DNA from: Sphingopyxis sp. PAMC25046
GTDB taxonomy: Bacteria > Pseudomonadota > Alphaproteobacteria > Sphingomonadales > Sphingomonadaceae
Length of the DNA: 64,000 bases
Direction: 5' to 3'
Assembly: GCF_004795895.1 (NCBI RefSeq)
Contig: NZ_CP039250.1
Coordinates: forward strand, 4,131,501 to 4,195,500
Position 1 is the stretch's first letter. The number at the start of each line of letters is the position of its first letter. Both the position numbers and the translations under genes were made by a program. Of this stretch, positions 213-64,000 are shown one piece after another. Under the pieces are notes generated by a model, which did not search any database, was not told where the DNA came from, and worked only from the letters and a program-made list of their open reading frames with translations.

Positions 213-1814
<1,602 letters not shown>

Positions 1815-1845
1815 TTGCTTCGCCTTTCCTTGCCGGACAGCGTCT

Positions 1846-2094: not shown

Positions 2095-2805
2095 ATGACG
2101 GCAACCATCGCGCTGGTCGACGACGACCGCAATATCCTGCAATCGCTGTCGATCGCGCTGCAAGCCGAAGGATTCGTCACGCGCGTCTATTCGGACGGTG
2201 AGGCGGCGCTGAAGCCGTTGATCGACAATCCGCCAGATCTGGCCGTTTTCGACATCAAGATGCCGCGGATGGACGGGCTCGAGCTGCTGCGCCGGCTGCG
2301 CGAGAAGAGCCAGCTGCCGGTCATCTTCCTGACCAGCAAGGACGACGAGATCGACGAAGCACTGGGCCTCGCGATGGGCGCCGACGACTATATCGCCAAG
2401 CCTTTTTCCCAGCGCTTGGTGATCGCGCGCATCCGCGCCATCCTGCGCCGCGTCGAGCTCAACCGGAGCGCGCCGAGCGAGGACGACGAGCCCGTCGCCG
2501 AGCCGATCACGCGCGGGCGGCTGAGCATGGACCCGGCGCGGCACAAGGTTGCCTGGGACGGCAAGGATGTGACGTTGACCGTCACCGAATTCCTGATTCT
2601 CGAAACGCTCGCGAGCCGCCCCGGCGTCGTGCGCAGCCGCAACCAGCTGATGGACGCCGCCTATCAGGACGACGTTTATATCGACGACCGCACGATCGAC
2701 AGCCACATCAAGCGCCTGCGCCGCAAGTTCCGCGAGGTCGATCCCGAGTTCGATGCGATCGCAACCCTCTATGGCGCGGGATATCGCTTTGCCGATGAAA
2801 GCTGA
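2095..2805 (+). CDS. chvI: Response regulator ChvI (OmpR family)
   Basis: 236 residues. An N-terminal receiver domain has the acidic pocket D9-D10-D11, the phosphoacceptor D53 in [11 protein letters not shown] and a conserved lysine in TSKDDE. A C-terminal winged-helix DNA-binding domain (about 130-232) ends in the [15 protein letters not shown] and YGAGYRF signatures of OmpR-type regulators. Its gene overlaps chvG by 11 bp, so the pair is translationally coupled. In Alphaproteobacteria ChvI with ChvG controls the cell envelope, acid response and central carbon genes. The PTS genes downstream and pckA upstream support the ChvI assignment over other OmpR proteins. Start: ATG at 2095. Confidence 0.93.
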
Positions 2806-4417
2806 CGCCCGGAAACCCGACCGGCTGACAGCCGACGCGAGTATCGCCGAGCAAGAGGAATCGCCGCTCGTCTGGTCGGCGCGCTGGTCGCTGACCACGC
2901 GCATCCTCGCGGTCAACATCCTCGCCGTCGCGCTGCTTGCGGGTGGCTTCTATTATCTCGATACCTATCGCAGCCGGCTGGTCGACACGCGCATCGAAGT
3001 GATGAAGGACCAGCTCGCGATGCTCGACAGCGCGCTCGAAGCCGCGCGGCCCGACCAGCGCGCCAGCCTGATCAGCGAATTCACCAGGGCCACCGAATCG
3101 CGGCTGCGCTTCTATAGCGCCGACGGGAAGCGCGTCTCCGACAGCTTCGCGAGCGGGCCGCCGACCTATACGCTGCGCGATCCCGAGCTCCAGCCATGGA
3201 AACGCGACGCCGCGCGCGCGATGGATCGCGGCATCGACTGGATCGTCGGCGCGCCGAGCTATCCCGATTTCGAGGAACCGCGCGTCGACCGGGCGCAATC
3301 CTGGCCCGAGGTCGTCGAGGCGCAGCAAAGCGGCCTCGCGGCGAGCCGCTTCCGCTATGCGCCCGAGCGCACGCCGCTCTTGAGCGCCGCGCGCGTCGTC
3401 GATCTCGAAGCGCCGCAAACGGTGCTGATGACGCTCAATGCGCGCGACATCACGCGGACGGTGCGCGCCGAACGCTTCCGCCTCGCGGTGGTCATCCTCG
3501 TCGTGCTGATGGCATCGGTGCTGCTCTCGCTCTTCCTCGCGCGCACGATCGTCCGCCCCTTGCGCCGCCTCGCGCGCGCCGCCGTCCGCGTCCGCCTCGG
3601 CCGCGCGCGCGAAGTCGTCGTGCCGCGCCTGCCAAGCCGCCGCGACGAGATCGGCACGCTCGCGCGCGCACTTTCGGACATGACGCAAGCCCTTCGAGAG
3701 CGCATCGATGCGGGCGAGCATTTCGCCGCCGATGTGACGCACGAACTCAAGAATCCGATCGCCTCGGTCCGCTCGGCGATCGAGGGGCTGGGCCGCGTCA
3801 AGAGCGACGAACAACGCGCGCAATTGCTCCGCATCGCCGACGAGGATGTCCGCCGGCTCGACCGGCTGGTGAGCGACATCAGCGAGGCGAGCCGCGTCGA
3901 CGCCCAGCTGTCGCGCACGCTGTTCGAGCCCGTCGACGTCGGCATCATGATCGAATCGATGCTCGCCGCGCGCGCCGCGCGCGTCGAGGCGGGTACGCCG
4001 CACCCACGCGTCGCCTTCGCGCGCCCGCGCAAGGGCACGACCGTGGTGATGGGCGACGGCCACCGGCTCGAGCGCGCGATCGACAATGTCATCGACAATG
4101 CGATCAGTTTTTCGCCGCCCTCTGGCCTCGTTTGCATTTCGGCGACCCGCCTCGGCGACGAGGTGCATGTGAAGGTTGACGACGACGGTCCCGGGATCGA
4201 GCCGGCGCAGCGCGACGCGATTTTCCGCCGCTTTCACAGCGAGCGGCCCGCGGGCGAGGCGTTCGGTCGCCACAGCGGGCTCGGCCTCGCGATCGCGCGG
4301 ACGATCGTCGAAGGCCACAGCGGGACGATCAGCGCGAGGGATCGCGACGACGGCAATCCGGGCGCCAGCCTGCTGATCACCCTGCCGGCGCGCGAGGGAT
4401 CGGACGCTGCCACCTAG
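2795..4417 (+). CDS. chvG: Sensor histidine kinase ChvG
   Basis: 540 residues from ATG 2795, chosen because it overlaps the end of chvI by 11 bp; a start further upstream would extend deep into chvI. An inner-membrane kinase: first membrane segment near residues 35-55 ([14 protein letters not shown]), a periplasmic sensor region of about 180 residues, second membrane segment near 225-250 ([18 protein letters not shown]), then HAMP, a HisKA domain with phospho-accepting H316 in THELKNP, and a HATPase_c domain with N box (VIDNAISFS), DDDGPGI and [11 protein letters not shown]. It phosphorylates ChvI. Gene order with hprK and the PTS genes is characteristic. Confidence 0.93.
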
Positions 4418-4450
4418 ATCGTCGAGCGGTTTAATCTGCAGCTTCCCCAC

Positions 4451-4536
4451 CCGTTTGTGCCGAGCGTGTCGAAGCACCGTCCTTCTTTCTACGTCGCAAC
4501 GAAAGAACGGCCCTTCGACAAGCTCGGGGCGAACGG
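4451..4536. repeat. Palindromic intergenic repeat (type D)
   Basis: Inverted repeat of about 24 bp per arm, CCGTTTGTGCCGAGCGTGTC... against ...CTTCGACAAGCTCGGGGCGA, with a few mismatches and a loop of about 38 bases. It lies between chvG and hprK. A related copy with the same core (gtgtcgagcgaag / cttcgctcga) is at 16875-16958. As RNA it would fold into one long hairpin, which could act in processing or attenuation between the sensor genes and the PTS genes. Confidence 0.75.
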
Positions 4537-4691
4537 TTCATATTAAGCGCACGGTGCTTTAGATCGCCCCCCCGCGAAAACGAGGACAGGCGTCAGCTCG
4601 GCGCGGCCTCTCCAGCGGCGGCCGCCTTCGCTGGGGCGACCTTCATCCTATCGCCTTGCGGCCCCGCTTCGGCGCCGGTAAGCCTTGCGCT

Positions 4692-5138
4692 ATGCTTCCT
4701 AGCCGGACCAGAACCGAAATCGTCAACATCCATGCAAGCTGCGTCGCGGCGGGCAATGGCGGCGTCCTGATTCTCGGCAATTCGGGGCAGGGCAAGTCGG
4801 ACCTCGCGCTGCGGCTGATCGATCGCGGCGCCAAGCTGGTCGCCGACGATCGCTGCGACATCTGGTTCGAGCGCGGCCGCCTGTGGTGCCGCCCGCCCGA
4901 AACGCTGGCCGGCAAGCTCGAGGTGCGCGGGATCGGGATCATCGAACGGCCGTGGACGGCGCCGGTGCCGCTCGCGCTCGCGGTGCGGCTGTCCGACCGT
5001 TACGACCGCATGCCCGCGGTGGGTCAGGTGGAGACGGTCGCGGGCCATCCGCTTCCCGCGCTGCTCTTGTCGGCGTTCGAGGCGTCGGCGCCGATCAAGA
5101 TTCTGCTCGCGCTCGAACAGCTGGCGCCCGCGGCATGA
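4692..5138 (+). CDS. hprK: HPr kinase/phosphorylase, short alphaproteobacterial form
   Basis: 148 residues from ATG 4692. An in-frame TTG at 4656 exists but adds an atypical N-terminus. This is only the C-terminal catalytic domain of classical HprK (about 310 residues), as is usual in Alphaproteobacteria. The P-loop GNSGQGKSD lies near residues 28-36 and is followed by [10 protein letters not shown] with the catalytic aspartates and by the VRGIGI segment. It phosphorylates a serine of HPr with ATP and can reverse this, controlling the regulatory PTS. The stop codon overlaps the rapZ start (ATGA), so translation is coupled. Its substrate HPr is three genes downstream. Confidence 0.92.
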
Positions 5139-6073
5139 GCCGGGACGCCGAATCGCGGCTGCTGCTCGTCACCGGCCTGTCGGGCGCGGGCAAGTCGACC
5201 GTGCTCAAGGTGCTCGAGGATCTGGGCTGGGAGGTCGTCGACAACCTCCCGCTCGCGCTGCTCGAAACGCTGATCGACGCCCCCGTCAAGCCCGGCGAGG
5301 CAGGACGCCCACTCGCGATCGGCATCGACAGCCGGAGTCGCGGCTTCCGGCCGGCGCTGCTCGTTCGGCGGATCAAGGAATTGCGCGAGAGCGGCCGCCG
5401 CGACATCCAGACTTTGTTCCTCGACTGCGCGGGCGCCGAGCTCGAACGCCGCTTTTCCGAAACGCGGCGGCGCCACCCGATGGCCGAGGACCGCCCCGCC
5501 GCCGACGGCATCGCGCGCGAGCGCGAAATGATGGAGCCGCTGCGCCGCTGGGCCGAGAATGTCGTCGACACGACCAATTATTCCAGCAACGATCTGCAGC
5601 AGGAAATCCGTCAGCGGTTCGGCGAGGCGGGCGATGGTGAGCCGGTGCTCAACATCCTTAGCTTTGGCTTCGCGCGCGGCCTTCCGCGCAACGCCGACCT
5701 GGTGTTCGACATGCGCTATCTGCGCAATCCGCACTGGGACCCGAAGCTCAAGCCCGGCACCGGGCTCGACGCCGATGTCGCCGCCTATGTCATCGCCGAT
5801 CCGGCTTATGAGGATAGCGTGTCGCAGATCGAGCGGCTGATCCTGACATTGCTGCCGCGCTACCGCGCCGAAGGCAAAAGCTATGTCACCATTGCCTTTG
5901 GCTGTACCGGCGGGCGGCACCGATCGGTCCATGTCGCGAACCGTGTGACCCAAACGCTGCGCGAGTCCGGATATGAGCCAGTGCTGACCCACCGCAATCT
6001 TGACTCCGCCCCGCAAGATGGGCTTGAGGGCAGGCCCCCGCCCGCGTCTCCCGCATCCGGCGGCAACATATAA
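5135..6073 (+). CDS. rapZ: RNase adapter / nucleotide-binding protein RapZ
   Basis: 312 residues, normal length. The N-terminal P-loop domain carries GLSGAGKS near residues 14-21 and a second nucleotide motif [11 protein letters not shown]. The C-terminal domain has the family hallmarks [18 protein letters not shown] and [10 protein letters not shown]. In enterobacteria RapZ binds glucosamine-6-phosphate and directs RNase E to the GlmZ small RNA. In Alphaproteobacteria the partner is unknown, but the gene is kept with the PTS genes. ATG 5135 overlaps the hprK stop. The open frame extends further upstream within hprK, which is only a shadow reading. Confidence 0.95.
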
Positions 6074-49971: not shown

Positions 49972-50754
49972 ATGTCGATCACCTCTGACCTCGCCCTCGC
50001 CAACCGCCTCGCCGACGCCGCCGGCGAAGCGATCCGCCCGCTCTTTCGTTCGAACTGGGTCCACGAAGCGAAGGCCGACGCCTCGCCCGTCACCGAGGCC
50101 GATCGCGCCGCCGAAGCCGCGATGCGCCGCCTGCTCGACGCCGAGGCGCCGCGCGACGGCATCATCGGCGAAGAATATGGCGCCGAGCGCCCCGAAGCCT
50201 CGCGCCAGTGGGTGCTCGACCCGATCGACGGCACCGTCAGCTTCATGGCCGGCCGCCCGATCTTCGGCACGCTGATCGCGCTGCTGCAGGACGGCTGGCC
50301 GATCCTCGGCATCATCGACCAGCCGATCGCCGGCGAACGCTGGGTCGGCGCGCTCGGGCAACCGACCCTGTTCAACGGCGCCCCGGCGCGCGCCCGTGCG
50401 TGCCGCAACCTCGCCGACGCCGTGCTTGCGACGACGGGACCGCAATATTTCAGCGATCACGACGGCGAGCATTTCATGGCGCTCGCGGCGAAGACATCGC
50501 ACAAGCGGATGGTCTTCGGCGGCGACTGCTATAATTATGGCCTGCTCGCGAGCGGGCATATCGACCTGGTGGTCGAGGCGGGGCTCAAGCTCCACGACTT
50601 CGCCGCGCTCGCGCCGATCGTCGAGGGCGCCGGCGGCACGATGTGCGACTGGAACGGCGATCCGCTCAGCGCCGACAGCGCCGGGCACGTCATCGCGCTC
50701 GGCGATCCGGCGCGGCTCGAGGACGTGATCGAAGGGCTCGCCTGCCATCATTGA
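49972..50754 (+). CDS. hisN: Inositol-monophosphatase family, probable histidinol-phosphatase
   Basis: 260 residues. Mg2+-dependent phosphatase of the FIG superfamily, with metal ligands in GIIGEEYG (Glu-Glu), VLDPIDGTVSFMAG (D-P-I-D-G-T) and a C-terminal HDFAALAPIVEGAGG (Asp). The DPIDGT and KTSHKRMVFGGDCYNYG segments are closest to HisN-type histidinol-phosphate phosphatases of Alphaproteobacteria, though inositol or nucleotide phosphates cannot be ruled out. Start ATG 49972. A GFA-family gene follows 15 bp later and may be co-transcribed. Confidence 0.85.
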   Translation: MSITSDLALANRLADAAGEAIRPLFRSNWVHEAKADASPVTEADRAAEAAMRRLLDAEAPRDGIIGEEYGAERPEASRQWVLDPIDGTVSFMAGRPIFGTLIALLQDGWPILGIIDQPIAGERWVGALGQPTLFNGAPARARACRNLADAVLATTGPQYFSDHDGEHFMALAAKTSHKRMVFGGDCYNYGLLASGHIDLVVEAGLKLHDFAALAPIVEGAGGTMCDWNGDPLSADSAGHVIALGDPARLEDVIEGLACHH

Positions 50755-50769
50755 GAGGAAGGAACGGAC

Positions 50770-51120
50770 ATGGCTTATGAAGGAAGCTGTCACTGCGGCG
50801 CGGTGACCTATAGCGTCGAGGGCGACATTCCCGATACGGCGATGAGCTGCAACTGCTCGCACTGCCGCCGCAAGGGCTTTTTGCTCGCCTTCGTGCCGAT
50901 CGACCAGTTCCGGCTCGAGAGCGGCGCCGAGCGGCTGACGTCGTACAAGTTCAACAAGCATAATATCGACCATCAATTCTGCGACGCGTGCGGGTGCCAG
51001 AGCTTTTCGGTGGGCGCCGGCCCCGATGGATCGAAGATGGCGGCGGTGAACCTGCGCTGCGTGCCCGCAGCCGACCTCGACGCGCTGAATATCCAGAAGG
51101 TCGACGGCGCGAGTTTCTGA
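50770..51120 (+). CDS. GFA-family zinc protein
   Basis: 116 residues with GGAAGGAAC upstream. The zinc ligands of the GFA/CENP-V fold are all seen: GSCHCGAV (C-x-C) near residue 6, SCNCSHCRR (C-x-C-x-x-C) near 38 and FCDACGCQSF (C-x-x-C) near 73. The family is named after a glutathione-dependent formaldehyde-activating enzyme, but most members have no proven activity. Follows hisN closely. A second, different member lies at 55 kb. Confidence 0.88.
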   Translation: MAYEGSCHCGAVTYSVEGDIPDTAMSCNCSHCRRKGFLLAFVPIDQFRLESGAERLTSYKFNKHNIDHQFCDACGCQSFSVGAGPDGSKMAAVNLRCVPAADLDALNIQKVDGASF

Positions 51121-51235
51121 TCCCACAACGCTTGCATTTCCGGGCGAATCCACCTAAGCGCGCCGCTTCCGATTGTGTCGGCTGGCTGAAAGGGCTGCCA
51201 GGCCGATACGCAAACGGACTTCAAAGGAGACCAAA

Positions 51236-51439
51236 ATGCCCAAGTTGAAGACCAAGAGCGGTGTGAAGAAACGCTTCAAATTCACCGCCTCGGGCAAGGT
51301 GAAGCACGGCGTCGCCGGCAAGCGCCACCGCCTGATTTCGCACAACTCGAAATATATCCGCACCAACCGCGGCACCAGCGTGCTCAGCGATTCGGACGTG
51401 GCCCATGTGCGCCTCTGGGCGCCCTACGGCCTGAAGTAA
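51236..51439 (+). CDS. rpmI: 50S ribosomal protein L35
   Basis: 67 residues from ATG 51236, preceded by AAGGAGA. Typical L35: [15 protein letters not shown], with [16 protein letters not shown]. rplT follows after 13 bases. infC is not upstream here, unlike in many bacteria. Confidence 0.97.
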
Positions 51440-51452
51440 GGAGCGCTAGACG

Positions 51453-51818
51453 ATGTCACGCATCAAACGCGGCACGACCACGCGTGCCAAGCACAAGCGG
51501 ATTTTGGATCAGGCGAAGGGCTATTATGGCCGTCGCAAGAACACGATCCGCATCGCCAAGCAGGCGGTCGAAAAGGCCGGCCAATATGCTTACCGCGACC
51601 GCAAGGTTAAGAAGCGCAGCTTCCGCGCCCTGTGGATCCAGCGCATCAACGCGGCGGTCCGCGCCGAAGGCCTGACCTATTCGCAGTTCATGCACGGCGT
51701 GAAGCTCGCCGGCATCGACCTCGACCGGAAGGTCATGGCCGACCTCGCGATGAACGAAGGCGGCGTGTTCACCGCAATCATCGCGCAGGCGAAGGCGGCG
51801 CTGCCCAAGGCAGCCTGA
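51453..51818 (+). CDS. rplT: 50S ribosomal protein L20
   Basis: 121 residues, full length. Conserved start [18 protein letters not shown], then [25 protein letters not shown] and [20 protein letters not shown]. Needed early in 50S assembly; in some bacteria it also controls its own operon. The rpmI-rplT pair ends at a terminator and pheS/pheT are not adjacent. Confidence 0.98.
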
Positions 51819-51847
51819 CGCTTTTCAGCCAATCGAACGAAATCAAG

Positions 51848-51875
51848 GGCGGTCCCGGCGGGGCCGCCCTTTTTC
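51848..51875 (+). terminator. Rho-independent terminator of rpmI-rplT
   Basis: GGGCGG at 51848-51853 pairs with CCGCCC at 51865-51870, extended by CCC/GGG inside, and is followed by TTTTT at 51871-51875. It lies 29 bp after the rplT stop codon. Confidence 0.88.
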
Positions 51876-51917
51876 GTTGGGGGTCCGCAAACGACCGGAA
51901 GCGGGCATTCCCATTAC

Positions 51918-52006
51918 CGTCACCCCGGGCTTGACCCGGGGCCTGCCTTGCCTTTTCGCCGTCGTCAGGAAGAAAAGGCGGGTCCCGGGTCAAGCCCGGG
52001 ATGACG
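51918..52006. repeat. Palindromic intergenic repeat (type C)
   Basis: CGTCACCCCGGGCTTGACCC... against ...GGGTCAAGCCCGGGATGACG, with additional inner pairing (CCTTTTCGCC / GGCGGG region) and a loop of about 30 bases. Between rplT and the convergent LysR gene. Confidence 0.87.
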
Positions 52007-52060
52007 AAAGTGAGAGCATGCAATGGCAGCTCTCCACCCCAAAACCGCCCTTCGCCCCCC

Positions 52061-52951
52061 TCAATCCAACCCCGCCGCCCGCATCCGCGCCGTCATCGCG
52101 GCGACGAACGCGCGCACCGACGGCAAGCCCGCGCGCGACGGCTCGAACAGCAGATGAACCGGCAGCGGCGGCGGCGCTTCGTCGGCCAGCAACGATATCA
52201 GCCGCCCCGCATCGACAGCCTCCGCAAGCTGGTAGGAGAGGAGGTTGGCGATCCCCAGCCCCGCCTCGGCCGCCGCCAGCACCCCGTCGACGCTGTTGAC
52301 GGCGAGCCGCGGCGGCGCATCGAGCCGCCAGCGCCGCGATGCAAACCGCCATTCGGTCGTCCAGCGTGGCCCCATCGTGCCGATCAGCTCGTGGCCCGCC
52401 AGGTCCGCGATCGTCGCGGGCGCCCCGCGGCGCGCGAGATAGGCGGGGCTCGCGACGAGCATCTGGCGCACCCGGCCGATGCGCTTGGCCTTCAGCGTCG
52501 TATCGGCGAGCGGCCCGATCCGCACCGCGACGTCGATCCCTTCCTCGACGATGCGCACATTGCGGTCGATCAGCATCATTCGCGCCGACAGCTCGCGGTG
52601 CTGCGCCATCAACTCGCCGATGACGGGCAGCACATGCAACCGTCCGAACATCACCGGCGCAGTCACGTGCAGCTGCCCGCGCGGCTCGGCCTCCGCCCCG
52701 CGCAGTTCGCGCTCGGCCCCCGCCAGATCGGCGAGGATGCGCCGCGCCTGCTCGAGAAACGCCGCCCCCGCGTCGGTCAACGCAACCGCGCGCGTCGACC
52801 GATGAAAAAGCGCCGTCCCCAGCCGCGCTTCGAGCGCCGCAATCCCGCGCGTCACCGCGGGCGGCGAACTGCCCAGCTTGCGCGCCGCCGCGGCAAAGCC
52901 GCCTTCGTTCGCGACCGCGACGAACATTTCGAGCGTGAGCAGCCGGTCCAT
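52061..52951 (-). CDS. LysR-family transcriptional regulator
   Basis: 296 residues from ATG 52949-52951. N-terminal winged helix (1-60) with EMFVAVANEGGFAAAARKLGSSPPAVTRGIAALEARLG, then a linker helix and an effector domain (90-296) with PRGQLHVTAPVMFGRLHV and LIDRNVRIVEEGIDVAVRIG, as in the CrgA/DsdC-like subgroup. Divergent from the PNPOx-GST-tautomerase-transporter operon across a 142-bp AT-rich gap, and thus its likely regulator. Confidence 0.92.
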   Translation of the reverse strand: MDRLLTLEMFVAVANEGGFAAAARKLGSSPPAVTRGIAALEARLGTALFHRSTRAVALTDAGAAFLEQARRILADLAGAERELRGAEAEPRGQLHVTAPVMFGRLHVLPVIGELMAQHRELSARMMLIDRNVRIVEEGIDVAVRIGPLADTTLKAKRIGRVRQMLVASPAYLARRGAPATIADLAGHELIGTMGPRWTTEWRFASRRWRLDAPPRLAVNSVDGVLAAAEAGLGIANLLSYQLAEAVDAGRLISLLADEAPPPLPVHLLFEPSRAGLPSVRAFVAAMTARMRAAGLD

Positions 52952-53093
52952 GATTATTCCACTTTTCGGAATTAACTTGTTCGATTTTCCATCATTATCA
53001 CTATGGGCGCAATGGACTATCTCCTCGGGGCGAACGAAGGCCCCGCCCCATCTTCCGCCTTCGTTCGCTTCCCTGACGGAAAGGTCGGTCACG

Positions 53094-53726
53094 ATGGCGC
53101 AGAATTACCGGCATACGCTGTTCGACGACGCCGTGAAGGCCGAGCAGGAGCGCCACGGCTCGCGCGCCGCCTATCTCAAGATGGACGCGAACGCCGATGG
53201 CACCCCCGATGCGCTGACGGCAAAGGAAATCGCCTTCATCGAGCAACGCGACAGCTTCTACATCGCAAGCGTCAATGCCGAAGGCTGGCCCTATATGCAG
53301 CATCGCGGCGGCCCCGCGGGGTTCCTGCGCCATATTACCGGCAATCGCATCGGTTTCGCCGACTATCGCGGCAACAAGCAATATATCAGCACCGCGAACC
53401 TCAAGGGCAACGACCGCGTTTCGCTGTTCCTGATGGACTATCCCAACAGGGATCGGCTCAAGCTCGTCGGCCATGCGGTCAGCGTCGAGCTTGCCGACGA
53501 TGCCGCCGCGGTCACCGCGCTGATGCCCGAAGGCTATCGCGCGGTCCCCGAGCGCGCCTTCTTCATCGATGTGATCGGCTGGGAATGGAATTGCTCGCAG
53601 CATATCACCCCGCGTTTCACCGAAGCCGAAATATCCGCCGCGGTCCGCCCGATGGCGACCGAAATCAACCAGCTGCGCGCCGAAATCGCAGCCTTGCGCG
53701 CCGCCCCGAAAGGAGACCGAACATGA
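53094..53726 (+). CDS. Pyridoxamine 5'-phosphate oxidase-like flavin protein
   Basis: 210 residues from ATG 53094 with GGAAAGG upstream. Split-barrel FMN-binding fold of the PNPOx-like family. Signatures: AFIEQRDSFYIASVNAEGWPYMQHRGGPAGF (flavin-binding segment), FADYRGNKQYISTANL and RLKLVGHAV. The C-terminal helix is RAEIAALRAAPKG. Family members reduce or bind quinones, aldehydes or other electrophiles; the substrate is unknown. First gene of a four-gene run; its stop overlaps the GST start (ATGA). Confidence 0.85.
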   Translation: MAQNYRHTLFDDAVKAEQERHGSRAAYLKMDANADGTPDALTAKEIAFIEQRDSFYIASVNAEGWPYMQHRGGPAGFLRHITGNRIGFADYRGNKQYISTANLKGNDRVSLFLMDYPNRDRLKLVGHAVSVELADDAAAVTALMPEGYRAVPERAFFIDVIGWEWNCSQHITPRFTEAEISAAVRPMATEINQLRAEIAALRAAPKGDRT

Positions 53727-54331
53727 TCCGCCTCTATGCGTCCGAAATGTCGGGCAATGCGCACAAGGTGCGGATGGCGCTCGCTTTCCTCGGCCTCGAC
53801 TGGGACGAGCGGGCGACCGACGCGGCCGCGCGCAAGACCGATGCCTTCCTTGCGCTCAACCCGATGGCGCAGATCCCCGTTTATGCCGAAGGCAATTTCG
53901 CCTTGCGCGACAGCCAGGCGATCCTCGCCTATCTCGCCGCGCGGCACCGGCCCGGCGACTGGGACGGGCAGACGCCCGAAGAACGCGGCGCGATCATGGT
54001 CTGGCTGTCGCATGCGGCGAACGAGATTTTCAACGGCCCCGCGCTGCTGCGCGCCGAGCGGCTGTTCGGCTGGTCGATCGATCGCGATCGCGCGGCCGCC
54101 GTCACCGACCGCATCCTGCCGGTGGTCGAGGCACATCTGACAGGCCGAGACTGGCTGGTCGGCGACCGGCTGACCATCGCCGACCTTGCCGCCAGCCCCT
54201 ATCTCGCGCTCGCGCCCGACGGCGGGGTCGATTTAGAACAATGGCCCGCGATCCGCGACTGGACGCGGCGGATCGCGGCGCTGCCCGATTTTCCCGCCAT
54301 GCCGGGCTGGCCGGCCGAAGGAGCCGCATGA
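53723..54331 (+). CDS. Glutathione S-transferase family protein
   Basis: 202 residues from ATG 53723, with AAAGGAGA about ten bases ahead. N-terminal thioredoxin-fold domain (1-78) with Y-A-S-E-M-S-G-N-A-H-K-V-R at the active-site region (Ser), NPMAQIPVY (cis-Pro) and LRDSQAILAYLA (Asp/Ser for glutathione), then an all-helical C-terminal domain with DWLVGDRLTIADLAAS. Probably conjugates or reduces electrophilic compounds. Coupled to both neighbours by overlapping start and stop codons. Confidence 0.92.
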   Translation: MIRLYASEMSGNAHKVRMALAFLGLDWDERATDAAARKTDAFLALNPMAQIPVYAEGNFALRDSQAILAYLAARHRPGDWDGQTPEERGAIMVWLSHAANEIFNGPALLRAERLFGWSIDRDRAAAVTDRILPVVEAHLTGRDWLVGDRLTIADLAASPYLALAPDGGVDLEQWPAIRDWTRRIAALPDFPAMPGWPAEGAA

Positions 54332-54558
54332 TGCCTTATGTCGACATCCGTATCACCCGCGAAGGCGCGACGCCCGAACAAAAGGCCGAACTGATCGCAG
54401 GCGTCACCGACCTGCTCCAGCGCGTGCTGGGCAAGAATCCGGCGACCACCGTCGTCAATATCGACGAGGTAGATTTGGACAATTGGGGGATCGGCGGACT
54501 GCCCGTTCTCGACTATCGCGCCTTGCAGGCCTCCCAATCGAAAGCGCAAAAGCCATGA
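54331..54558 (+). CDS. 4-oxalocrotonate tautomerase-family protein
   Basis: 75 residues. Two ATGs stand together (54328 and 54331). The second is chosen because tautomerases need proline directly after the initiator Met, and M-P-Y-V-D-I begins there. The catalytic Pro1 and later TPEQKAELIAGVTDLLQRVLGK helix and TVVNIDEV strand are typical. These small hexameric enzymes tautomerise enols or add water to unsaturated acids. Overlaps the GST gene upstream and the transporter downstream. Confidence 0.88.
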   Translation: MPYVDIRITREGATPEQKAELIAGVTDLLQRVLGKNPATTVVNIDEVDLDNWGIGGLPVLDYRALQASQSKAQKP

Positions 54559-55010
54559 CCGCGAACAACGCCGCCCCCGCCTTTGCCACGATCATGTTCC
54601 TGACCGGGGTCGGCATCCCGATTCTCGCCGCCTTGAACGGCGGGCTCGGCGCGCGGCTAGGCGCCCCGATGGCCGCCTCGATGATCCTCTTCGGCCTCGC
54701 CTTCCTGATCGCGGCGACCGGCGCGCTGCTCACCGGGTCGGTCGGACAGGTCCGCTTCACCCCGGACATTCCCGCCCATTTCTATTTCGGCGGATTGTTC
54801 GTCGCCTTTTACGTCATCGCCGTGACCTTCATCGCGCCCAAATTCGGCGTCGGCAACGCGATCTTCTTCGTCCTCGTCGGCCAGCTCGTCAGCGCGGCGA
54901 CGATCGACCATTTCGGCCTGTTCGGCGCGATCCGTTCGGCGATCGACGCGAAGCGCGTCGCGGGGATCGCGCTGATGATCGCCGGGGTGTATCTGGCGCG
55001 GCGCACCTGA
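54555..55010 (+). CDS. Small DMT-superfamily membrane transporter (YdcZ/DUF606-like)
   Basis: 151 residues, ATG 54555 overlapping the tautomerase stop. Four to five membrane segments: about 10-28, 36-56, 75-93, 100-120 and 130-148. The opening TGVGIPILAALNGGLGARLGAPMAASMILF matches the DUF606 family, whose members work as half-size transporters in pairs. Its place at the end of the PNPOx-GST-tautomerase run suggests export of the compound or its product. Substrate unknown. Confidence 0.8.
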   Translation: MTANNAAPAFATIMFLTGVGIPILAALNGGLGARLGAPMAASMILFGLAFLIAATGALLTGSVGQVRFTPDIPAHFYFGGLFVAFYVIAVTFIAPKFGVGNAIFFVLVGQLVSAATIDHFGLFGAIRSAIDAKRVAGIALMIAGVYLARRT

Positions 55011-55013
55011 CCG

Positions 55014-55418
55014 CTACATGTGCGACGTCACCTCCGGAGGGTTCCACCAATTGTTGCCTGCGCCGTCCATATGGCTCACTGGCAGCGCCGCCATCTCGGC
55101 GTGCGTCAGGTCGTCGAGGCACGCGATCGCCACCGAAACATAAGCCCCGCCGATCTCCTCGACATAACCGTGGCCGAAGGGCGACACGCCGCAGGTCTTG
55201 CAAAAGACGTGATGCCCGCTGTTCGACCCGAACTGATAGTCCGACAATGCCGCAGGATCGGTGAGCAGGCGAAAGGCGTCGGGCTTGGTCTGCGCGTTCC
55301 AGCCGCGCTTCTTGGTGCAGATCGAGCAATTGCACTTGCCCGTCCCCGCTTCGAGATCGAGGTCGGCTTCGAATTTGACCGCGCCGCAGTGGCACGAACC
55401 ATGATGGGTCTTGAGCAT
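55014..55418 (-). CDS. GFA-family zinc protein
   Basis: 134 residues. Zinc-binding pattern GSCHCGAVKF, GKCNCSICTK and FCKTCGVSPFG. Longer than the copy at 50.8 kb, with a different C-terminal end (DGAGNNWWNPPEVTSHM). Activity unproven. Its stop is four bases from that of the YdcZ-like gene, with which it converges. Confidence 0.88.
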   Translation of the reverse strand: MLKTHHGSCHCGAVKFEADLDLEAGTGKCNCSICTKKRGWNAQTKPDAFRLLTDPAALSDYQFGSNSGHHVFCKTCGVSPFGHGYVEEIGGAYVSVAIACLDDLTHAEMAALPVSHMDGAGNNWWNPPEVTSHM

Positions 55419-55497
55419 CGCAAATCCTCCGGTTGCCGGCGCCGTCCTTGGCGCCCTTCACCCGAAGCGATGTAGCCTTCGCCCCTGACAGATCATG

Positions 55498-56193
55498 TCA
55501 GGAGGCGTCGTCCCATCCGTTCCGCCGCCACCAGTCGGCCATCAGCACCGCGCGCCGCCGCCCGAACCCTTCGTCGCCGATTCGCGCCGCGGCGATGCGG
55601 TCGATGCGAAAGCTGCGGAAATCCTGCCGCAGCAAGCACCACGCCGCGATGACCTGCTTGTCCTCGAAATAGGCGAGCGCGGCGGGCCAGATCGACCGCT
55701 CGGTCGCCGTGCCCTTCTCGTCGGCATAGTCGATGTGCAGCACCTTTTCCGCGCGCATCGCCTCACGCACCGTCGCGAGCAGCGGCGCATTGCTTTCGCG
55801 CCAGCGGCTGTTCACCGGCCACAGCCCCGACTCGTCGATCCTTTGCCGAAGCGCGTCGGGGCTCGCCGCCGCGATCTTCGCGAGCGCCAGCCCCGCGGCG
55901 CGCGACAGCGCCCCGTCCTGCCGCCCCTCGACCCAGCGCGCGCCGAGCACCAGCGCCTCCAGCTCGTCGGCGCTGAACATCAGCGGCGGCAGGAAAAATC
56001 CCGGCCGCAGCACATAGCCGACCCCCGCCTCGCCCTCGACCGGCGCGCCGAGCGCGATCAGCGTCTGGATGTCGCGATAGAGCGTGCGCACCGACACGCC
56101 CTGCTCCTCGGCCAGCGCCTCGGCGGTCACCGGCCGGCGGTGGCGGCGCAGCGTGTCGATGATCGCGAAGAGCCGCGCCGTCTTGTCCGCCAT
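55498..56193 (-). CDS. YafY-type regulator with HTH and WYL domains
   Basis: 231 residues. N-terminal HTH_11 winged helix (RLFAIIDTLRRHRRPVTAEALAEEQGVSVRTLYRDIQTL, 6-45), then a linker and a WYL-type domain (about 135-215) with AEKVLHIDYADEKGTATERSIWPAALAYFEDKQVIAAWCLLRQDFRSFRIDRI. WYL domains bind small ligands or nucleic acids. Targets unknown; the adjacent DUF6265 gene starts outside its promoter region and lies upstream on the same strand. Confidence 0.9.
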   Translation of the reverse strand: MADKTARLFAIIDTLRRHRRPVTAEALAEEQGVSVRTLYRDIQTLIALGAPVEGEAGVGYVLRPGFFLPPLMFSADELEALVLGARWVEGRQDGALSRAAGLALAKIAAASPDALRQRIDESGLWPVNSRWRESNAPLLATVREAMRAEKVLHIDYADEKGTATERSIWPAALAYFEDKQVIAAWCLLRQDFRSFRIDRIAAARIGDEGFGRRRAVLMADWWRRNGWDDAS

Positions 56194-56209
56194 GATGCCG
56201 TGTCCCCGC

Positions 56210-58781
<2,572 letters not shown>

Positions 58782-58787
58782 ATTAGG

Positions 58788-58821
58788 AATGGGGGCTAGG
58801 ACTCAGTTCGACGCCCCCATT
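58788..58821 (+). terminator. thiC terminator, overlapping the 3' end of the HNH gene
   Basis: AATGGGGGC (58788-58796) pairs perfectly with GCCCCCATT (58813-58821) around a 16-base loop, followed by a T-containing stretch (TTGCTTTG). The right arm encodes the last residues of the HNH endonuclease on the opposite strand. Confidence 0.7.
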
Positions 58822-59336
58822 TTGCTTTGCTTTAGAATTTCGATCATTCGAGCCCTGATAGTGAGTGCTTCATGAGCATAGTGAGCTTTGCGGTGATCCA
58901 GCGGGCAAACTGCGATAACATTGTCAACCGCGTCCGGGCCACCTTCGCTCAACGGAATCACATGATGAGTCTCAAGGTAAATTCGTCCGCTTGAAGTCTG
59001 AAATCCAGGTTCATCGCAATACTCGCACCTGCCTTTGGAGCGCACTAATGCGGCCTGCCTTATGTCACGATTTCTAGTATATACCGAGCTACTAACCTGA
59101 TTACGCTCTACCTCCGCACTCAGCGTATCACTGTCAAATTGATCAACGTAGGCAGATTGGCCAGTCCCCCTAACAAGTACGAACTCGCCGGTTCGAGAAT
59201 CATAATGCCGAATGTGCCACGGTTCAGCATCCAATTCTCGATGAGACACTTTCGAAGAATCCGAGTGCGGATCTTGAGTTGCTCTGCGCTTACCATCCAC
59301 AACGAGAACTCTGATCGGGAGATTGTCGTAAGCAGC
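58803..59336 (-). pseudogene. HNH endonuclease, 3' part (gene split by IS3-family element)
   Basis: 177 codons, the C-terminal part of a gene whose start lies at 60936. It holds the nuclease site: a zinc-type CEYCDEPG pair, then LETHHVIPLSEGGPDAVDN and VCPLDHRKAHY, a full HNH pattern (two His, Asn and His) with a second Cys. An ORF opening within the insertion sequence (59384) reads into it and could still give a 193-residue protein with its first 16 residues encoded by the IS end. DNA is clearly richer in A and T than the flanking genes, as expected of a transferred gene. Confidence 0.85.
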
Positions 59337-59400
59337 CTGTGGCCTGCTGCCGGTTTGGTGGACACCGAGATAGGGTGTTTCCACCTATCGGAGGTCCACA

Positions 59401-59691
59401 ATGCAAAGAAGGAAGTTCAGCCGCGAGTTCAAGCTTGAGGCGGTGAGGATGGTCCGCGAACGCGGGGTGACGATCGCGCAGGCGTCGCGCGATCTGGATG
59501 TGCATGCGAACGTGCTGCGTAAATGGGTCCGGGAGCTTGCCGCCGATCCGGGTCATGCCTTTCCCGGTCACGGTCAGATGAAGCCGGAGCAGATGGAGAT
59601 CGATCGCCTGCGGCGCGAGCTGGCCAAGTTGAAGGCGGAGCGCGACATCCTAAAAAAAGCCGCCGCCTACTTCGCGAGGGACTCGATATGA
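59401..59691 (+). CDS. IS3-family transposase OrfA
   Basis: 96 residues. N-terminal helix-turn-helix (about 5-45: REFKLEAVRMVRERGVTIAQ...LDVHANVLRKW) that recognises the element ends, followed by a leucine-zipper-like helix (IDRLRRELAKLKAERDIL) for dimerisation. GGAGG stands seven bases before the ATG. Its end contains the run of seven A at 59652-59658 read as AAA-AAA, a classical A-AAA-AAA-G slippery site for -1 frameshifting into orfB. Confidence 0.94.
   Translation: MQRRKFSREFKLEAVRMVRERGVTIAQASRDLDVHANVLRKWVRELAADPGHAFPGHGQMKPEQMEIDRLRRELAKLKAERDILKKAAAYFARDSI
59652..59658 (+). other. Programmed -1 frameshift site (A7) of the IS element
   Basis: The orfA codons read ct-A AAA AAA gcc, so ribosomes can slip back by one base into the orfB frame and make an OrfAB fusion (59401-60548), the true transposase of IS3 elements. 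Confidence 0.75.
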
Positions 59692-60548
59692 AGTTCCAGT
59701 TCATCGCGAAGCACCGAGGGATCTGGCCGGTGGCATGGATGTGCGGGGCGCTCGGTGTCTCGCGAAGCGGCTTCCATGCCTGGCTGATCCGCCCGCCGTC
59801 GCAGCGTGCCCGCGACGACGAGGTGATCGGTGCGAAGGTCCGTGCCAGCCATGTAGGAAGTTATCGCACTTATGGCGCGCGCCGTGTCTGGCACGACCTG
59901 CTGGCCGATGGGGTGTCCTGCGGCCTGCACCGGATCGAACGGCTCATGCGGGCGCAGGGTCTGCGAGCGAGGCCGCGGCGACGCGGGCTTCCCAAGGATC
60001 ACGGCGATCGTTCGGTCATCGCCGGCAACGTGCTCGATCGCCAGTTCACGGCAGACAGGCCGAACCAGAAGTGGGTGGCCGACTTCACCTATATCTGGAC
60101 GGCCGAGGGATGGCTCTATGTTGCTGCGGTGATCGACCTGTTCTCGCGCCGGGTGGTCGGATGGTCGATGACTCCCAACATGACAGCCCAGCTCGTCACC
60201 GATGCGCTGATCATGGCGATCTGGCGGCGCGGCAAGCCCGATGCTCTCCTGCATCACTCGGATCAGGGCAGCCAGTATACCAGCGAGCAGTTCCAGCGGC
60301 TCATGGCCGACAATGGGGTCACCTGCTCAATGAGCCGGTCCGGCAATGTATGGGATAATGCCGCCATGGAGAGCTTCTTCTCCTCGCTCAAGACCGAGCG
60401 GATCGGGAAGAAGATCTACCGCACGAGGGCGCAGGCGAAGGCCGACGTGTTCGATTATATCGAATGCTTCTACAACCCGACCCGGCGTCACTCGACCTTG
60501 GGTTACCTCAGTCCTATCGACTTCGAACGTGAAGCTGGGGTAGCCTGA
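59688..60548 (+). CDS. IS3-family transposase OrfB (DDE integrase core)
   Basis: 286 residues from ATG 59688, overlapping the orfA stop (ATGA). HTH_21-type region near 45-90 (SYRTYGARRVWHDLL), then the rve integrase core with the catalytic triad: Asp in W-V-A-D-F-T-Y-I, Asp in HHSDQGSQY and Glu in NAAMESFFSSLKTE. It ends YNPTRRHSTLGYLSPIDFE, typical of IS3. Probably produced mainly as the OrfAB fusion by frameshifting. Confidence 0.95.
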   Translation: MKFQFIAKHRGIWPVAWMCGALGVSRSGFHAWLIRPPSQRARDDEVIGAKVRASHVGSYRTYGARRVWHDLLADGVSCGLHRIERLMRAQGLRARPRRRGLPKDHGDRSVIAGNVLDRQFTADRPNQKWVADFTYIWTAEGWLYVAAVIDLFSRRVVGWSMTPNMTAQLVTDALIMAIWRRGKPDALLHHSDQGSQYTSEQFQRLMADNGVTCSMSRSGNVWDNAAMESFFSSLKTERIGKKIYRTRAQAKADVFDYIECFYNPTRRHSTLGYLSPIDFEREAGVA

Positions 60549-60588
60549 ATGAACTTATCTCGGTGTCCACCAAACCGGCAGCAGGCCA

Positions 60589-60936
60589 CTGAGCCGCATC
60601 GCGGTCTAGCTTGAGCCCCCTGGTAATCCACTGCGTCTTGCCGCCATTGGCGCGGTGAAATGCCGCATTCTGCCTAAAATTGTCACGGTAAACGATCTCG
60701 CCATTTTCCATCTTCATAGCATCATGCCAGAGATTAAAAACCGCCACCTTTTTAGGTTGAACGAATGACCAATCGTAGCAATACTTTGGATTTGCTTTGA
60801 TTTTTCTCGGGTTAGTCGCTGATGCAATCCAGTCTGACGTATCAAACCCAAGGCTTTCCACTACGTCAAAAACAATCTGCTTACGCCGTGGCTTCAGGCC
60901 ATCCAGCTCGGATTGAATATCCATAACAGCCCCCAT
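60589..60936 (-). pseudogene. HNH endonuclease, 5' part (gene split by IS3-family element)
   Basis: 116 codons from ATG 60934-60936 (a second ATG at 60924 follows GGGGGC and may be the real start). The reading frame ends at the codon CAG of the target site; in the present DNA it runs on into the IS for 24 more codons. The segment (MGAVMDIQSELDGLKPRRKQ, then CYDWSFVQPKKVAVFNLWHD and FHRANGGKTQWITRGLKLDR) is an N-terminal domain before the nuclease, of unknown fold, perhaps for DNA recognition. With 58803-59336 it would make a 293-residue protein. It starts 34 bp after the stop of the gene at 60971, so the two form an operon. Confidence 0.85.
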
Positions 60937-60970
60937 GAAACGTTCTATCTTCTTCGCAACAAAAAGATCG

Positions 60971-61837
60971 CTATATATCGATTATCGGCCCCGAGCTAAT
61001 ATGCTGTACTATAAGTGCCTTTAGGCGCCCGGTAGATGATTCTAAGCGAATCCCGTGAAGGGTAATCAAACCGTCTGATAAACCTCGCGAAGAAGCGTTG
61101 GTTCGAAGACTGGACGTAACTAGATGAATATTAGATCTAGTTCTCGCCACCTCGTCCAACTCAAAAGGGATCGGCCTTTGTTCGTCAGGCAAAAAAATTC
61201 GTCCTTTGAAAGTATTAACGTTATAGCTTGACACCAAACCCTCGTGAGCGACTATATTCTCACCTCGAACAGTTCTAGAAATGTACTCGTAGCTAAATTC
61301 GGTCATGTTTGGACCGATCTGCTCGATGCCAGATGCCCTAATCCAAAATAACCTAGCTTGGTTTGCGCTCTCTGACGCTATAATCGGCCTATGCATATCA
61401 GCGATGCTAGACTCCGTCTTCTCCATCAGACTGTCTAGCTTTTCTTGTGTTATATTCCTTTCTGAAAGCGCCTCCCTGTGAGACATATACAAGCTCTTAT
61501 CGTAGTCCACATGAAATCCGAGCGTGTTAGCAATGACATAATCATATACCGAATACAGCAGATGGCCGAGAGGCGTGTCCTTTGAGGCCGTACCGGCTAT
61601 CCAAGCCACGCCCACGATTGAAGCTATTAGCTCCCATGAGCCAGCCTCAGGCGTAGTAACTAGGATTTCAGCATTCTTTAGAGATGGCGCTTGAGTTATT
61701 ATTTCGCCATTCAATACTAGATGTGTCGTCAACGCGAGAGAGCGTTGAAAGCCAGCCATCGCCCTAGCTGCATCGTAAAAGTCGAGGACATGGTTCTCTG
61801 CTAGATTTCCGTCAAATTTCAGCTTTATATCGGTCAT
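60971..61837 (-). CDS. Unrecognised protein, first gene of the HNH operon
   Basis: 288 residues, ATG 61835-61837 with GGTGGGGGA upstream. No named domain recognised with confidence. The N-terminal 80 residues (IKLKFDGNLAENHVLDFYDAA, GFQRSLALTTHLVLNGE) are beta-alpha in pattern; a small-residue hydrophobic stretch (about 72-88: LIASIVGVAWIAGTAS) could be a membrane or buried helix; the middle (115-150) is helical with charged residues; and the C-terminal third (190-288) is beta-rich with NVNTFKGRIFLPDEQRPIPF. The outline recalls DUF7946-type proteins, but this is from memory and weak. Low GC and isolated codon use suggest transfer together with the HNH gene. Confidence 0.7.
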   Translation of the reverse strand: MTDIKLKFDGNLAENHVLDFYDAARAMAGFQRSLALTTHLVLNGEIITQAPSLKNAEILVTTPEAGSWELIASIVGVAWIAGTASKDTPLGHLLYSVYDYVIANTLGFHVDYDKSLYMSHREALSERNITQEKLDSLMEKTESSIADMHRPIIASESANQARLFWIRASGIEQIGPNMTEFSYEYISRTVRGENIVAHEGLVSSYNVNTFKGRIFLPDEQRPIPFELDEVARTRSNIHLVTSSLRTNASSRGLSDGLITLHGIRLESSTGRLKALIVQHISSGPIIDI

Positions 61838-62034
61838 CGTCCCCCACCATATTTATTAGAATTCCGAGAACAACAAATCTGAAAAAACGCAATTTCTGGT
61901 TAATTATATGTCTGACAGGTTGGGAGCAACCCTCAGACTGCGGACCGTCTCATTTGGACTATAGTGGCAGTTGATTGATTCCAGATGATACGCACGAATC
62001 GGCCCATCCCCCACACCATGCTACACTCCCACCC

Positions 62035-62547
62035 ATGCGCGCCCGAAACCCCCTCTACGTCATGGCCAAACCGCCGCCGGAGGTGCAGGCGCAGATCGCC
62101 GCGCTGCCGCGCAACGACCCTTCGCGCGGCCCCCACCTCCTCCATGTCACGCTCATCTCGCTCTACGACCTCCACCATGCGCCGCCCGAGTGGCTGCCCG
62201 CGACCATCGCCGCGCTGGACGGCTTCGCCGCGGCGCCCTTTCCGCTCCGCTTCGACCGGATCGAGAACCGCAAGGCGGTGACGCTGCGCACCCGCGAGCC
62301 GCTGGCCGAAGCGCGGGCGTTCCAGAAGGCGCTGGTCAATCATCTGCTGCGCGAAAAGGCGCCGATCATGGACGGCACCACCCCCGAACCGCACATCACG
62401 ATCAACTATCGCGGCGACCGGCTGAATGCCCAGAAAATCCCGCCGATCCGCTGGACGGTGGACGAAATCATCCTCACCGAAAGCATCGTCGGCAAAACCA
62501 CCCATGTCGAACACGGCCGCTGGCCACTCCGCGGGGTTGCGTCCTGA
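62035..62547 (+). CDS. 2'-5' RNA ligase / cyclic phosphodiesterase family protein
   Basis: 170 residues from ATG 62035; the frame could open earlier but there is no good ribosome binding site. Two H-x-T/S motifs mark the 2H phosphoesterase fold: HVTLISLY near residue 38 and HITINYRG near 125. In bacteria such proteins (ThpR, LigT) open 2',3'-cyclic phosphates or join RNA halves. Marks the return to core-type GC content after the AT-rich island. Confidence 0.85.
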   Translation: MRARNPLYVMAKPPPEVQAQIAALPRNDPSRGPHLLHVTLISLYDLHHAPPEWLPATIAALDGFAAAPFPLRFDRIENRKAVTLRTREPLAEARAFQKALVNHLLREKAPIMDGTTPEPHITINYRGDRLNAQKIPPIRWTVDEIILTESIVGKTTHVEHGRWPLRGVAS

Positions 62548-62566
62548 GCGGGAATGTAACCCACCT

Positions 62567-62684
62567 CGTCATCCTCTAACGAGACGCGTGGCTCGTTAGA
62601 CTTGATCCGGGATCCACTGCGGCGCTGAAGTCATCGACCCCGGATCAAGCCTGTCCCGAGCTTGTCGAAGGGCCCGGGGTGACG
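62567..62684. repeat. Palindromic intergenic repeat (type C, composite)
   Basis: Outer CGTCAT / GTGACG ends with ACTTGATCCGGGATCCACTG against GACCCCGGATCAAG, plus an inserted type D core (CCCGAGCTTGTCGAAGGGCC). It lies between two convergent genes, the 2H phosphoesterase and the 79-residue protein. Confidence 0.6.
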
Positions 62685-62714
62685 AAACGGGCTGCGGCGG
62701 CCTGGAACACCCCG

Positions 62715-62954
62715 TCAGCCAAAGTATCGCCGAAACCAACCCCGCTTTCCGGGAACGACCGGCGACTGGCCGGAAATGCGGACCAGATAATGCCCGAGGA
62801 CCGCCGCTTGCTGCTTGGTCATCAATATCCGGAACAGGTCGGGGTCGTGCGCGTTGGCCGCTTCCGAGGACTGCACGCTTTCCAGCCGGAGCATGATGCG
62901 GTCGCCCGCGTCATGATGGTCCCAGCCGACCAGTGCCCCGAAACTCTCCATCAT
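62715..62954 (-). CDS. Small conserved-looking hypothetical protein
   Basis: 79 residues, MM start at 62954 or 62951. It begins M-M-E-S-F-G-A-L-V-G-W-D-H-H-D-A-G-D and ends in a basic K-R-G-W-F-R-R-Y-F-G. The segment FRILMTKQQAAVLGHYLVRISG looks like one amphipathic helix. No membrane segment or known motif. GGAGAGGCGGG upstream fits a ribosome binding site. Function unknown. Confidence 0.6.
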   Translation of the reverse strand: MMESFGALVGWDHHDAGDRIMLRLESVQSSEAANAHDPDLFRILMTKQQAAVLGHYLVRISGQSPVVPGKRGWFRRYFG

Positions 62955-63065
62955 CCCGCCTCTCCCCCACCATCTTCGCGCGGCCGATGCCGACGATCCG
63001 ATAGGGCGTTTTACCAGAGCCGCGGTGCAATGTCGTCCAATGGTCGAAAAGCCGCCCGTCGGCGG

Positions 63066-63080
63066 CCCCCCCCCCCCCCC
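63066..63080 (+). repeat. 15-base C homopolymer upstream of the HTH gene
   Basis: A run of 15 C at 63066-63080, 47 bp before the start codon of the 63128 gene. It lies in the gap between two divergent genes and could alter promoter spacing if it slips. Runs of this length are also prone to sequencing error. Confidence 0.85.
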
Positions 63081-63127
63081 GCAAAAACCCCTTTCCTACA
63101 TCGCATCGCCATGCTTCATCCTGTTCG

Positions 63128-63766
63128 ATGACCCAGCCCAAACCCCATGCTCGCCCCGCGCGGCCGCGTGGTCCGGCTTTGCAAGGCCCGGCGCCGCAAA
63201 GCCTGACCGCCGCGCTGTCCTCCTTCACCCCCGCGCAGCTTCAGCGTCAGCGCAGCAGCGGCTGGACCCCCGACCGCCAGCGCAAGTTTATCGAGGCGCT
63301 CGCCGCATCGGCCTGCGTGACCGAGGCGGCGGCGAGCGTCGGGCTGTCGGCGACATCGGCCTATAACCTTCGCCGCCGCCCCGATGCCCATGCGTTCCGC
63401 CATGCGTGGGATGCCGCGATCGATTGCGGGATGCGGCGGCTGGTCGACGCCGCGCTGGCGCGCGCGGTCCACGGCGTGCCCGTCCCCATATTCTACAAGG
63501 GCGAACAGGTGGGCGAGCGGCGCGAATATCCCGAACGGCTCGCGATGTTCCTGATGCGCGCGCACGACCCCCATCGCTTTGGCGCCGCGGGGTCGAGCGA
63601 CGCGAACGGCGGCACCACGCCAGCGCACGGCGACCCCGCCGAAGCCCGGCTGGCCGATGCGCTCGCGCGGATCGGCGCGCCCGCCGACGACCCGCCGCCC
63701 CCCGCCCCGCTGCGCCTGCCCGGCCCGACTGCCGACGACGGCGACGGCCCGGACCCAAGTGACTGA
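63128..63766 (+). CDS. Helix-turn-helix protein resembling phage terminase small subunits
   Basis: 212 residues. A basic, Pro-rich N-terminus (about 1-45) is followed by a helix-turn-helix (about 50-90: TPDRQRKFIEALAASACVTEAAASVGLSATSAYNLRRRPDA) as in small terminase subunits and homeodomain-like recombinases. The middle contains VPVPIFYKGEQVGERREYPERLAMFLMRAHDP, often seen in chromosomal relatives in sphingomonads. The tail is Pro/Ala/Asp-rich and acidic. No large terminase or other phage genes are near, so it is likely a domesticated DNA-binding protein. Function unknown. Confidence 0.65.
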   Translation: MTQPKPHARPARPRGPALQGPAPQSLTAALSSFTPAQLQRQRSSGWTPDRQRKFIEALAASACVTEAAASVGLSATSAYNLRRRPDAHAFRHAWDAAIDCGMRRLVDAALARAVHGVPVPIFYKGEQVGERREYPERLAMFLMRAHDPHRFGAAGSSDANGGTTPAHGDPAEARLADALARIGAPADDPPPPAPLRLPGPTADDGDGPDPSD

Positions 63767-63888
63767 TTTCATGGGCCCGGAGGTGACAAGTTTGACAAGT
63801 TAAGGCAAAAAAACACGCTCCCCACGGCTCGACCCCGACGCCGCTTGCCGATAGGATGCCCGCCTTGGCCCAGGACAGGAGACGGACG

Positions 63889-64000
63889 ATGCGTGGACAG
63901 GCATTAGGCGCGGCGATGCTGCTGCTCGCGGCGTGCGGAAAGGCCGATGCCCCCGCGGCGCCCGAAAAATCGGTGCTGGCCGATGGCCCCGCGGCCACAA
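63889..64000 (+). CDS. Lipoprotein, N-terminal part only (runs off window)
   Basis: ATG 63889 with AGGAGA upstream opens a frame of 37 codons to the window edge. It begins M-R-G-Q-A-L-G-A-A-M-L-L-L-A-A-C-G, a lipoprotein signal with lipobox L-A-A-C, then an Ala/Pro-rich linker. Function unknown from the part visible. Confidence 0.7.
   Translation, partial: MRGQALGAAMLLLAACGKADAPAAPEKSVLADGPAAT

Follow-up and report, generated by a model that had tools for sequence, protein, structure and literature searches.

What are two AT-rich genes, one of them broken by an insertion sequence (IS), doing between two core genes of Sphingopyxis sp. PAMC25046? The locus lies in a window of 64 kb (positions 4131501-4195500 of the 4.5-Mb single-contig genome, G000), whose own numbering is used for all features below, and consists of a minus-strand gene pair between thiC and a gene for a 2H (2'-5' RNA ligase-like) phosphoesterase. 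A preliminary description of the sequence had taken the pair for a horizontally acquired two-gene defence unit, made of an unknown protein and an HNH nuclease. In the explanation that we prefer, and to which we assign a probability of roughly two in three, the two genes occupy a genus-wide defence slot of about 2 kb, the nuclease gene is predicted to be a broken modification-dependent (type IV) restriction enzyme, and the first gene, encoding a DUF7946/DUF7947 protein, is independent of it. According to this explanation, the slot would hold different content in most species; the divergent SRA-like N-terminal domain of the nuclease would bind to modified cytosines in phage or plasmid DNA that enters the cell, and its McrA-type HNH domain would cut nearby, both activities being deduced from domains recognised in structure models and profiles. 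The nuclease gene is now broken by an IS3-family element.

A variable slot between thiC and the phosphoesterase gene

The left anchor of the slot is thiC (conserved part of the open reading frame (ORF) at 57036..58781, plus strand; match to the ThiC chain 3epm, E 8e-288), and the right anchor is the phosphoesterase gene (62035..62547, plus strand; PF13563, E 8.5e-11), the start of which was placed by eye from a conserved MRAR. A search for the phosphoesterase at E 0.001 matched 56 of 119 relatives, all of them in this genus. Forty regions were fetched, and the same core genes flanked variable cargo in 37 of them, giving 38 loci with the window. In all 38, the gap extended from just past the thiC stop codon to about 30 bp ahead of the phosphoesterase start (58782..62005 in the window, with other genes there in sister species). 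The gap had a median size of 2,148 bp (range 1,473-5,775), and 32 of the 38 measured between 1.5 and 3.2 kb. AT-rich cargo, defined as a 300-bp stretch below 50% GC, was present in 37 of the 38 gaps versus one of the 32 control stretches taken 1.5-3 kb upstream of thiC. Genes in the fetched loci were called mechanically as the longest ORFs, so that small genes may be wrong.

Of the 703 gap pairs, 20 had a match of 200 bp or more in common, and for 11 of 12 hand-picked cargo-sharing or related pairs, including that of the window and G068, neither member was the nearest thiC relative of the other. Some gap pairs shared just a module on the thiC side and others just a module on the phosphoesterase side. 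In the 31 other genomes of the genus in the sample, the phosphoesterase was partial, missing, or not fetched, and thiC was found in 29. From these, a second set of 26 regions was fetched (three in which a contig end truncates thiC were omitted), 24 of which had readable downstream sequence. Under the same 50% GC rule and by our own classification, 14 carried AT-rich cargo, nine did not, and one (G013) was empty, with a truncated phosphoesterase adjoining thiC; eight of the nine cargo-free loci had no phosphoesterase match at this place.

The thiC-to-phosphoesterase stretch in the window is 3.2 kb long and AT-rich. Both of its genes were low in GC (46-50% against 65%) and, as first described, richer in A/T than the two anchors. 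The GC content and the GC content at third codon positions (GC3) were 0.461 and 0.469 for the first gene, 0.482 and 0.536 for the N-terminal piece of the nuclease gene, and 0.499 and 0.458 for its C-terminal piece, versus 0.656 and 0.873 for thiC and 0.680 and 0.876 for the phosphoesterase gene, with a GC content of 0.654 for the whole window. The 14 lowest-GC 500-bp segments of the 64 kb all start within 58701-61601. This composition, together with the sporadic distribution, supports the proposed gain by horizontal transfer, and no tRNA landing site was found in 50000-64000.

Several stretches recurred among the slots with varying partners: one with a DUF2199 gene (L134, L142, L175, L177, and L180; next to thiC in most), a Fic gene adjoining the phosphoesterase (L128, L136, L138, and L139), and a gene of 311-396 amino acids beside the phosphoesterase (L143, L148, L152, L154, and L171, the last without the phosphoesterase). 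By eye, L134, L140, L146, L153, L156, and L161 shared a short stretch like GGTTTACTAAACCCCAAA just upstream of the phosphoesterase in slots that otherwise differed, which may mark an ancestral edge or a boundary of recombination.

Literature searches on thiC with defense systems (titles and abstract starts) and on Sphingopyxis anti-phage hotspots yielded no description of a thiC-phosphoesterase slot; as far as these searches show, the small genus-wide slot is new.

Anti-phage genes among the cargo

Cargo proteins from the gaps of relatives were scanned using PADLOC (20 singly and 47 as a tally, the matches being given as raw counts) and Pfam (40 of the 83 ORFs of at least 100 amino acids). Recognised anti-phage systems were found among the 20 proteins scanned singly. 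The PADLOC matches comprised Drt9 (L127), Drt8 (L141), a dCTPase (dCTP deaminase; L124), a type II-A retron with reverse transcriptase and nucleoside deoxyribosyltransferase (NDT) effector (L145), reverse transcriptases of unclear class (L140 and L187), AbiU (L171), HEC-04 (L182), HEC-06 (L188), SIR2 (L181), a DruM-type cytosine methylase with Vsr (L185), and a type II methyltransferase (L168); PDC-S60 (L134) and dGTPase (L158) were weaker or partial matches. The Pfam families included AAA_15/AAA_21 ATPases, DUF4062, SocA_Panacea, Fic, HD, and DUF3800. Genes of no obvious defence link, such as those for a 5'-nucleotidase and a TPR protein, were also present. No Pfam or PADLOC match was obtained for L126 and L150, and no Pfam match for L133 and L153. 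The occupants of L126, L133, L150/L163, and L153 (323-596 amino acids; L163 by its similarity to L150) are candidate undescribed anti-phage genes.

These matches support a defence setting, because known anti-phage genes fill this slot in several sister species. The defence guess of the preliminary description is likely right, for reasons that lie outside the sequence on which it was made, and its guess of a two-gene unit is probably wrong.

A bolder reading, which we offer tentatively and would rate somewhat below even odds, is that the slot is a small genus-wide defence site whose short anti-phage modules replace one another, one at a time, through recombination, and that its unannotated occupants, DUF7946/DUF7947 included, are undescribed anti-phage genes. 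If true, the slot would be a ready-made trap for finding new anti-phage systems. About 2 kb between fixed anchors in dozens of species is an easy place to seek them. It also allows a clean test of the exchange of immune genes via plain recombination, and DUF7946/DUF7947, a Pfam family without assigned function, gains a testable defence context. In the available text of earlier reports, defence hotspots are described within one species, span several to many kb, and in E. coli lie mostly on mobile elements (PMC10250203, PMC10121019).

Probable exchange of slot content

Homologous recombination in the core genes on either side is the probable route by which the slot content is exchanged, since no integrase was found among the 40 Pfam-scanned cargo proteins and extra partial copies of the anchor ends were present inside the slot in six of 67 loci. 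These copies were thiC 3' ends that terminate at the stop codon (one in L124 and two in L175) and duplicated phosphoesterase 5' ends (L135, L143, L148, and L162). Because of such partial ends, modules seem to have brought pieces of their flanks with them, which fits flank recombination and also integration at gene ends. Raised flank identity was not clearly seen in 15 cargo-sharing pairs, for which the outcome was negative or mixed.

Integrase-less hotspots have been described before, with double recombination in the core genes beside them as the published model in the text available to us (Oliveira et al. 2017, PMC5635113). The slot resembles them in its high turnover, in the lack of a recognised integrase in the scanned cargo, and in its conserved flanking core genes, and differs in that flank recombination was published for them and is deduced for the slot. 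Flank recombination was also suggested for the core defence hotspots of Pseudomonas (PMC10250203), and most defence genes of E. coli were reported to ride on mobile elements (PMC10121019). As far as the text of the former goes, the P. aeruginosa cDHS1 and cDHS2 likewise have fixed core genes on both sides of an anti-phage cargo that varies, and cDHS1 shares with the slot a lower GC content and no obvious single mobile element. Their medians, taken within one species, are 26 and 6 kb, in contrast to 2.1 kb and one to few genes across the species of a genus here.

Filling by an unrecognised site-specific mobile cassette instead of flank recombination appears unlikely, although of the alternatives it survives best. 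It would account for the fairly uniform size of the cargo, for a replaced stretch that starts directly past the thiC stop, and for the additional thiC 3' ends of L124 and L175, which end exactly at the stop as they would after gene-end integration. The lack of an integrase among the 40 cargo proteins scanned (of 83 ORFs) speaks against it, as do the lack by eye of an edge sequence common to all loci apart from the anchors, the independent sharing of modules on each side, and the duplication of phosphoesterase 5' ends as well as thiC ends. We retain flank recombination as the probable route.

One system or two neighbours

The minus-strand arrangement of the pair and the 288 residues of the first gene (60971..61837, intact) were borne out, and the nuclease probably has 289 residues and a 46-bp gap in place of the 293 residues and 34-bp spacing first given. 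The 5' part of the nuclease gene lies at 60589..60936 (minus strand; 116 residues when read separately) and contains most of a putative SRA-like reader domain, and the 3' part at 58803..59336 (minus strand) contains the HNH domain and the stop codon, with 177 residues encoded by 58806-59336. The second ATG, at 60924, is the probable start: the intact homologue P0121 opens with MDIQ, and a GGGGG stretch precedes this ATG.

The preliminary description had proposed to check whether the two genes recur as neighbours and whether they show a sensor-plus-nuclease arrangement. A hidden Markov model (HMM) of the nuclease family was run on 48 DUF7946 loci (45 from genomes and three viral, with flanks of up to 7 kb and several clipped by contig ends; the DUF7946 frame of L053 is broken), and the family was found in none of them. 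The nuclease was also absent from eight further DUF7946 loci of relatives (phmmer, about 1.5 kb of flank). Conversely, 44 nuclease loci were scanned with the DUF7946 HMM; L063 is the locus of this genome clipped before the first gene, and DUF7946 was found in none of the other 43, most of the genome loci among them having about 1.5 kb of flank. Eight of these 43 hold full-length relatives (L060, L061, L064-L066, and L190-L192), and in the others the match lies mainly in the HNH domain. No Pfam family stood beside DUF7946 in more than three of the 72 neighbours scanned (72 of 87 were given to Pfam). Both genes probably occur together in at least one near relative, because P0002 and P0122 come from one source and each lists a longest contig of 5,021 bp. 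This single deduced exception aside, the pair did not recur in the loci scanned.

A dedicated two-gene system, in which the DUF7946 protein would sense infection and activate or guide the HNH nuclease, was dropped as the leading explanation since the two genes were found apart, and we consider it improbable. The shared strand, the 46-bp gap, the similar composition, and the probable recurrence in the near relative would suit it. The absence of each family from the scanned loci of the other, full-length nuclease relatives included, the lack of any regular Pfam family among the 72 scanned neighbours of DUF7946, and a reader-like domain within the nuclease itself count against it. Two modules that came to lie side by side are the best description of the pair.

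The nuclease gene

The best reading of the nuclease gene is that it encodes a predicted modification-dependent (type IV) restriction enzyme, because P0121, an intact protein from the protein collection that is 99% identical to the C-terminal piece, models as an SRA-like reader domain followed by a McrA-type HNH domain. P0121 gave an SRA-type fold match and a profile match spanning both domains. The C-terminal piece matched PF01844 (E 1e-11), an HNH domain of the beta-beta-alpha-metal kind, and its best PADLOC match was mREase_IV (E 2.4e-18), confined to the HNH part. The N-terminal piece alone had no Pfam match at E 1. The best solved relatives of the nuclease were EcoKMcrA, ScoMcrA, and TagI, and the 6ghc alignment to the P0121 model was confined to residues 195-284.

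The nuclease is probably a divergent member of an already known kind. It has a putative reader domain followed by an HNH domain, as do the SRA-HNH type IV endonucleases TagI, ScoA3IV, and TbiR51I and the SBD-SRA-HNH enzyme ScoMcrA, and is similar in length to TagI. Unlike in the SRA-HNH enzymes, its N-terminal domain goes unrecognised by Pfam, the canonical pocket motif was not seen, and its HNH sequence is nearer to that of EcoKMcrA. In TagI (PMC6212794), the base-flipping pocket consists of Tyr, Tyr, and Asp. The SGGYEDD-like stretch of L201 and L202 was not apparent in the alignment of the nuclease family. The match to EcoKMcrA (NEco-HNH) is limited to the HNH part, and the same list includes SRA folds that match the N-terminal part.

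That the enzyme serves homing or housekeeping and has no defence role is very improbable: HNH domains are common to homing enzymes and many phage HNH families match the C-terminal piece weakly, but the best PADLOC match and the best solved relatives are restriction-type, a reader-like second domain is present, and the family is too rare for a housekeeping gene, the N-terminal piece being found in four of 396 genomes of the order (this genome included, and one being a short weak match).

The full-length relatives L190, L191, and L192 sit on contigs classed as viral; by eye, tail-type genes adjoin L190 and an integrase-like ORF lies close to L192, surroundings that are usual for prophage cargo.

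The DUF7946/DUF7947 gene

The first gene exceeded the Pfam cut-off of 27 bits for both DUF7946 (PF25678, 117.5 bits) and DUF7947 (PF25679, 44.5 bits), entries to which Pfam assigns no function. Its residues 189-288 model as an OB fold, the VIA-align rows covering only that part. No solved relative of DUF7946 was found by sequence at E 5 or by Foldseek at E 0.001, and the term DUF7946 was not found in the literature searched. The family was seen twice in the thiC-phosphoesterase slot with different partners: in the window and in G068, where a homologue of 49% identity has a convergent neighbour of 328 amino acids with a weak nucleoside deoxyribosyltransferase match.

Jointly with the slot and the restriction enzyme, the best explanation for this gene is an independent neighbour of the nuclease that usually stands alone. 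Its location in the slot and its OB-fold-like C-terminal part lead us to guess at a nucleic-acid-binding, probably anti-phage role. A phage or plasmid origin of the gene was also considered and rejected, as tblastn returned nothing from annotated phages and two distant matches (23-24% identity) from plasmids. DUF7946 is carried by three viral contigs.

The IS3-family insertion

Disruption of the nuclease gene by an IS, as first described, was confirmed. The element (59340..60588, plus strand, 1,249 bp) carries the OrfA/OrfB transposase, inverted ends, and short target duplication of the IS3 family, with an NF033516 match (E 2e-109) and perfect terminal inverted repeats of 33 bp. OrfA (HTH_Tnp_1, PF01527, E 8e-18) lies at 59401..59691 and OrfB (rve integrase core, PF00665, E 2e-30), as mechanically listed, at 59523..60548, both on the plus strand and overlapping in different frames. 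The 3-bp target-site duplication CTG stands at 59337..59339 and 60589..60591. A second copy, identical over the full length and flanked by CCG on each side, lies at G000:C1:1253148-1254396, giving two copies in the genome. The break of the nuclease gene looks recent, since this identical second copy and the intact, 99%-identical P0121 exist. Transposase-like genes were also seen by eye in the slots L151 and L157 of other species.
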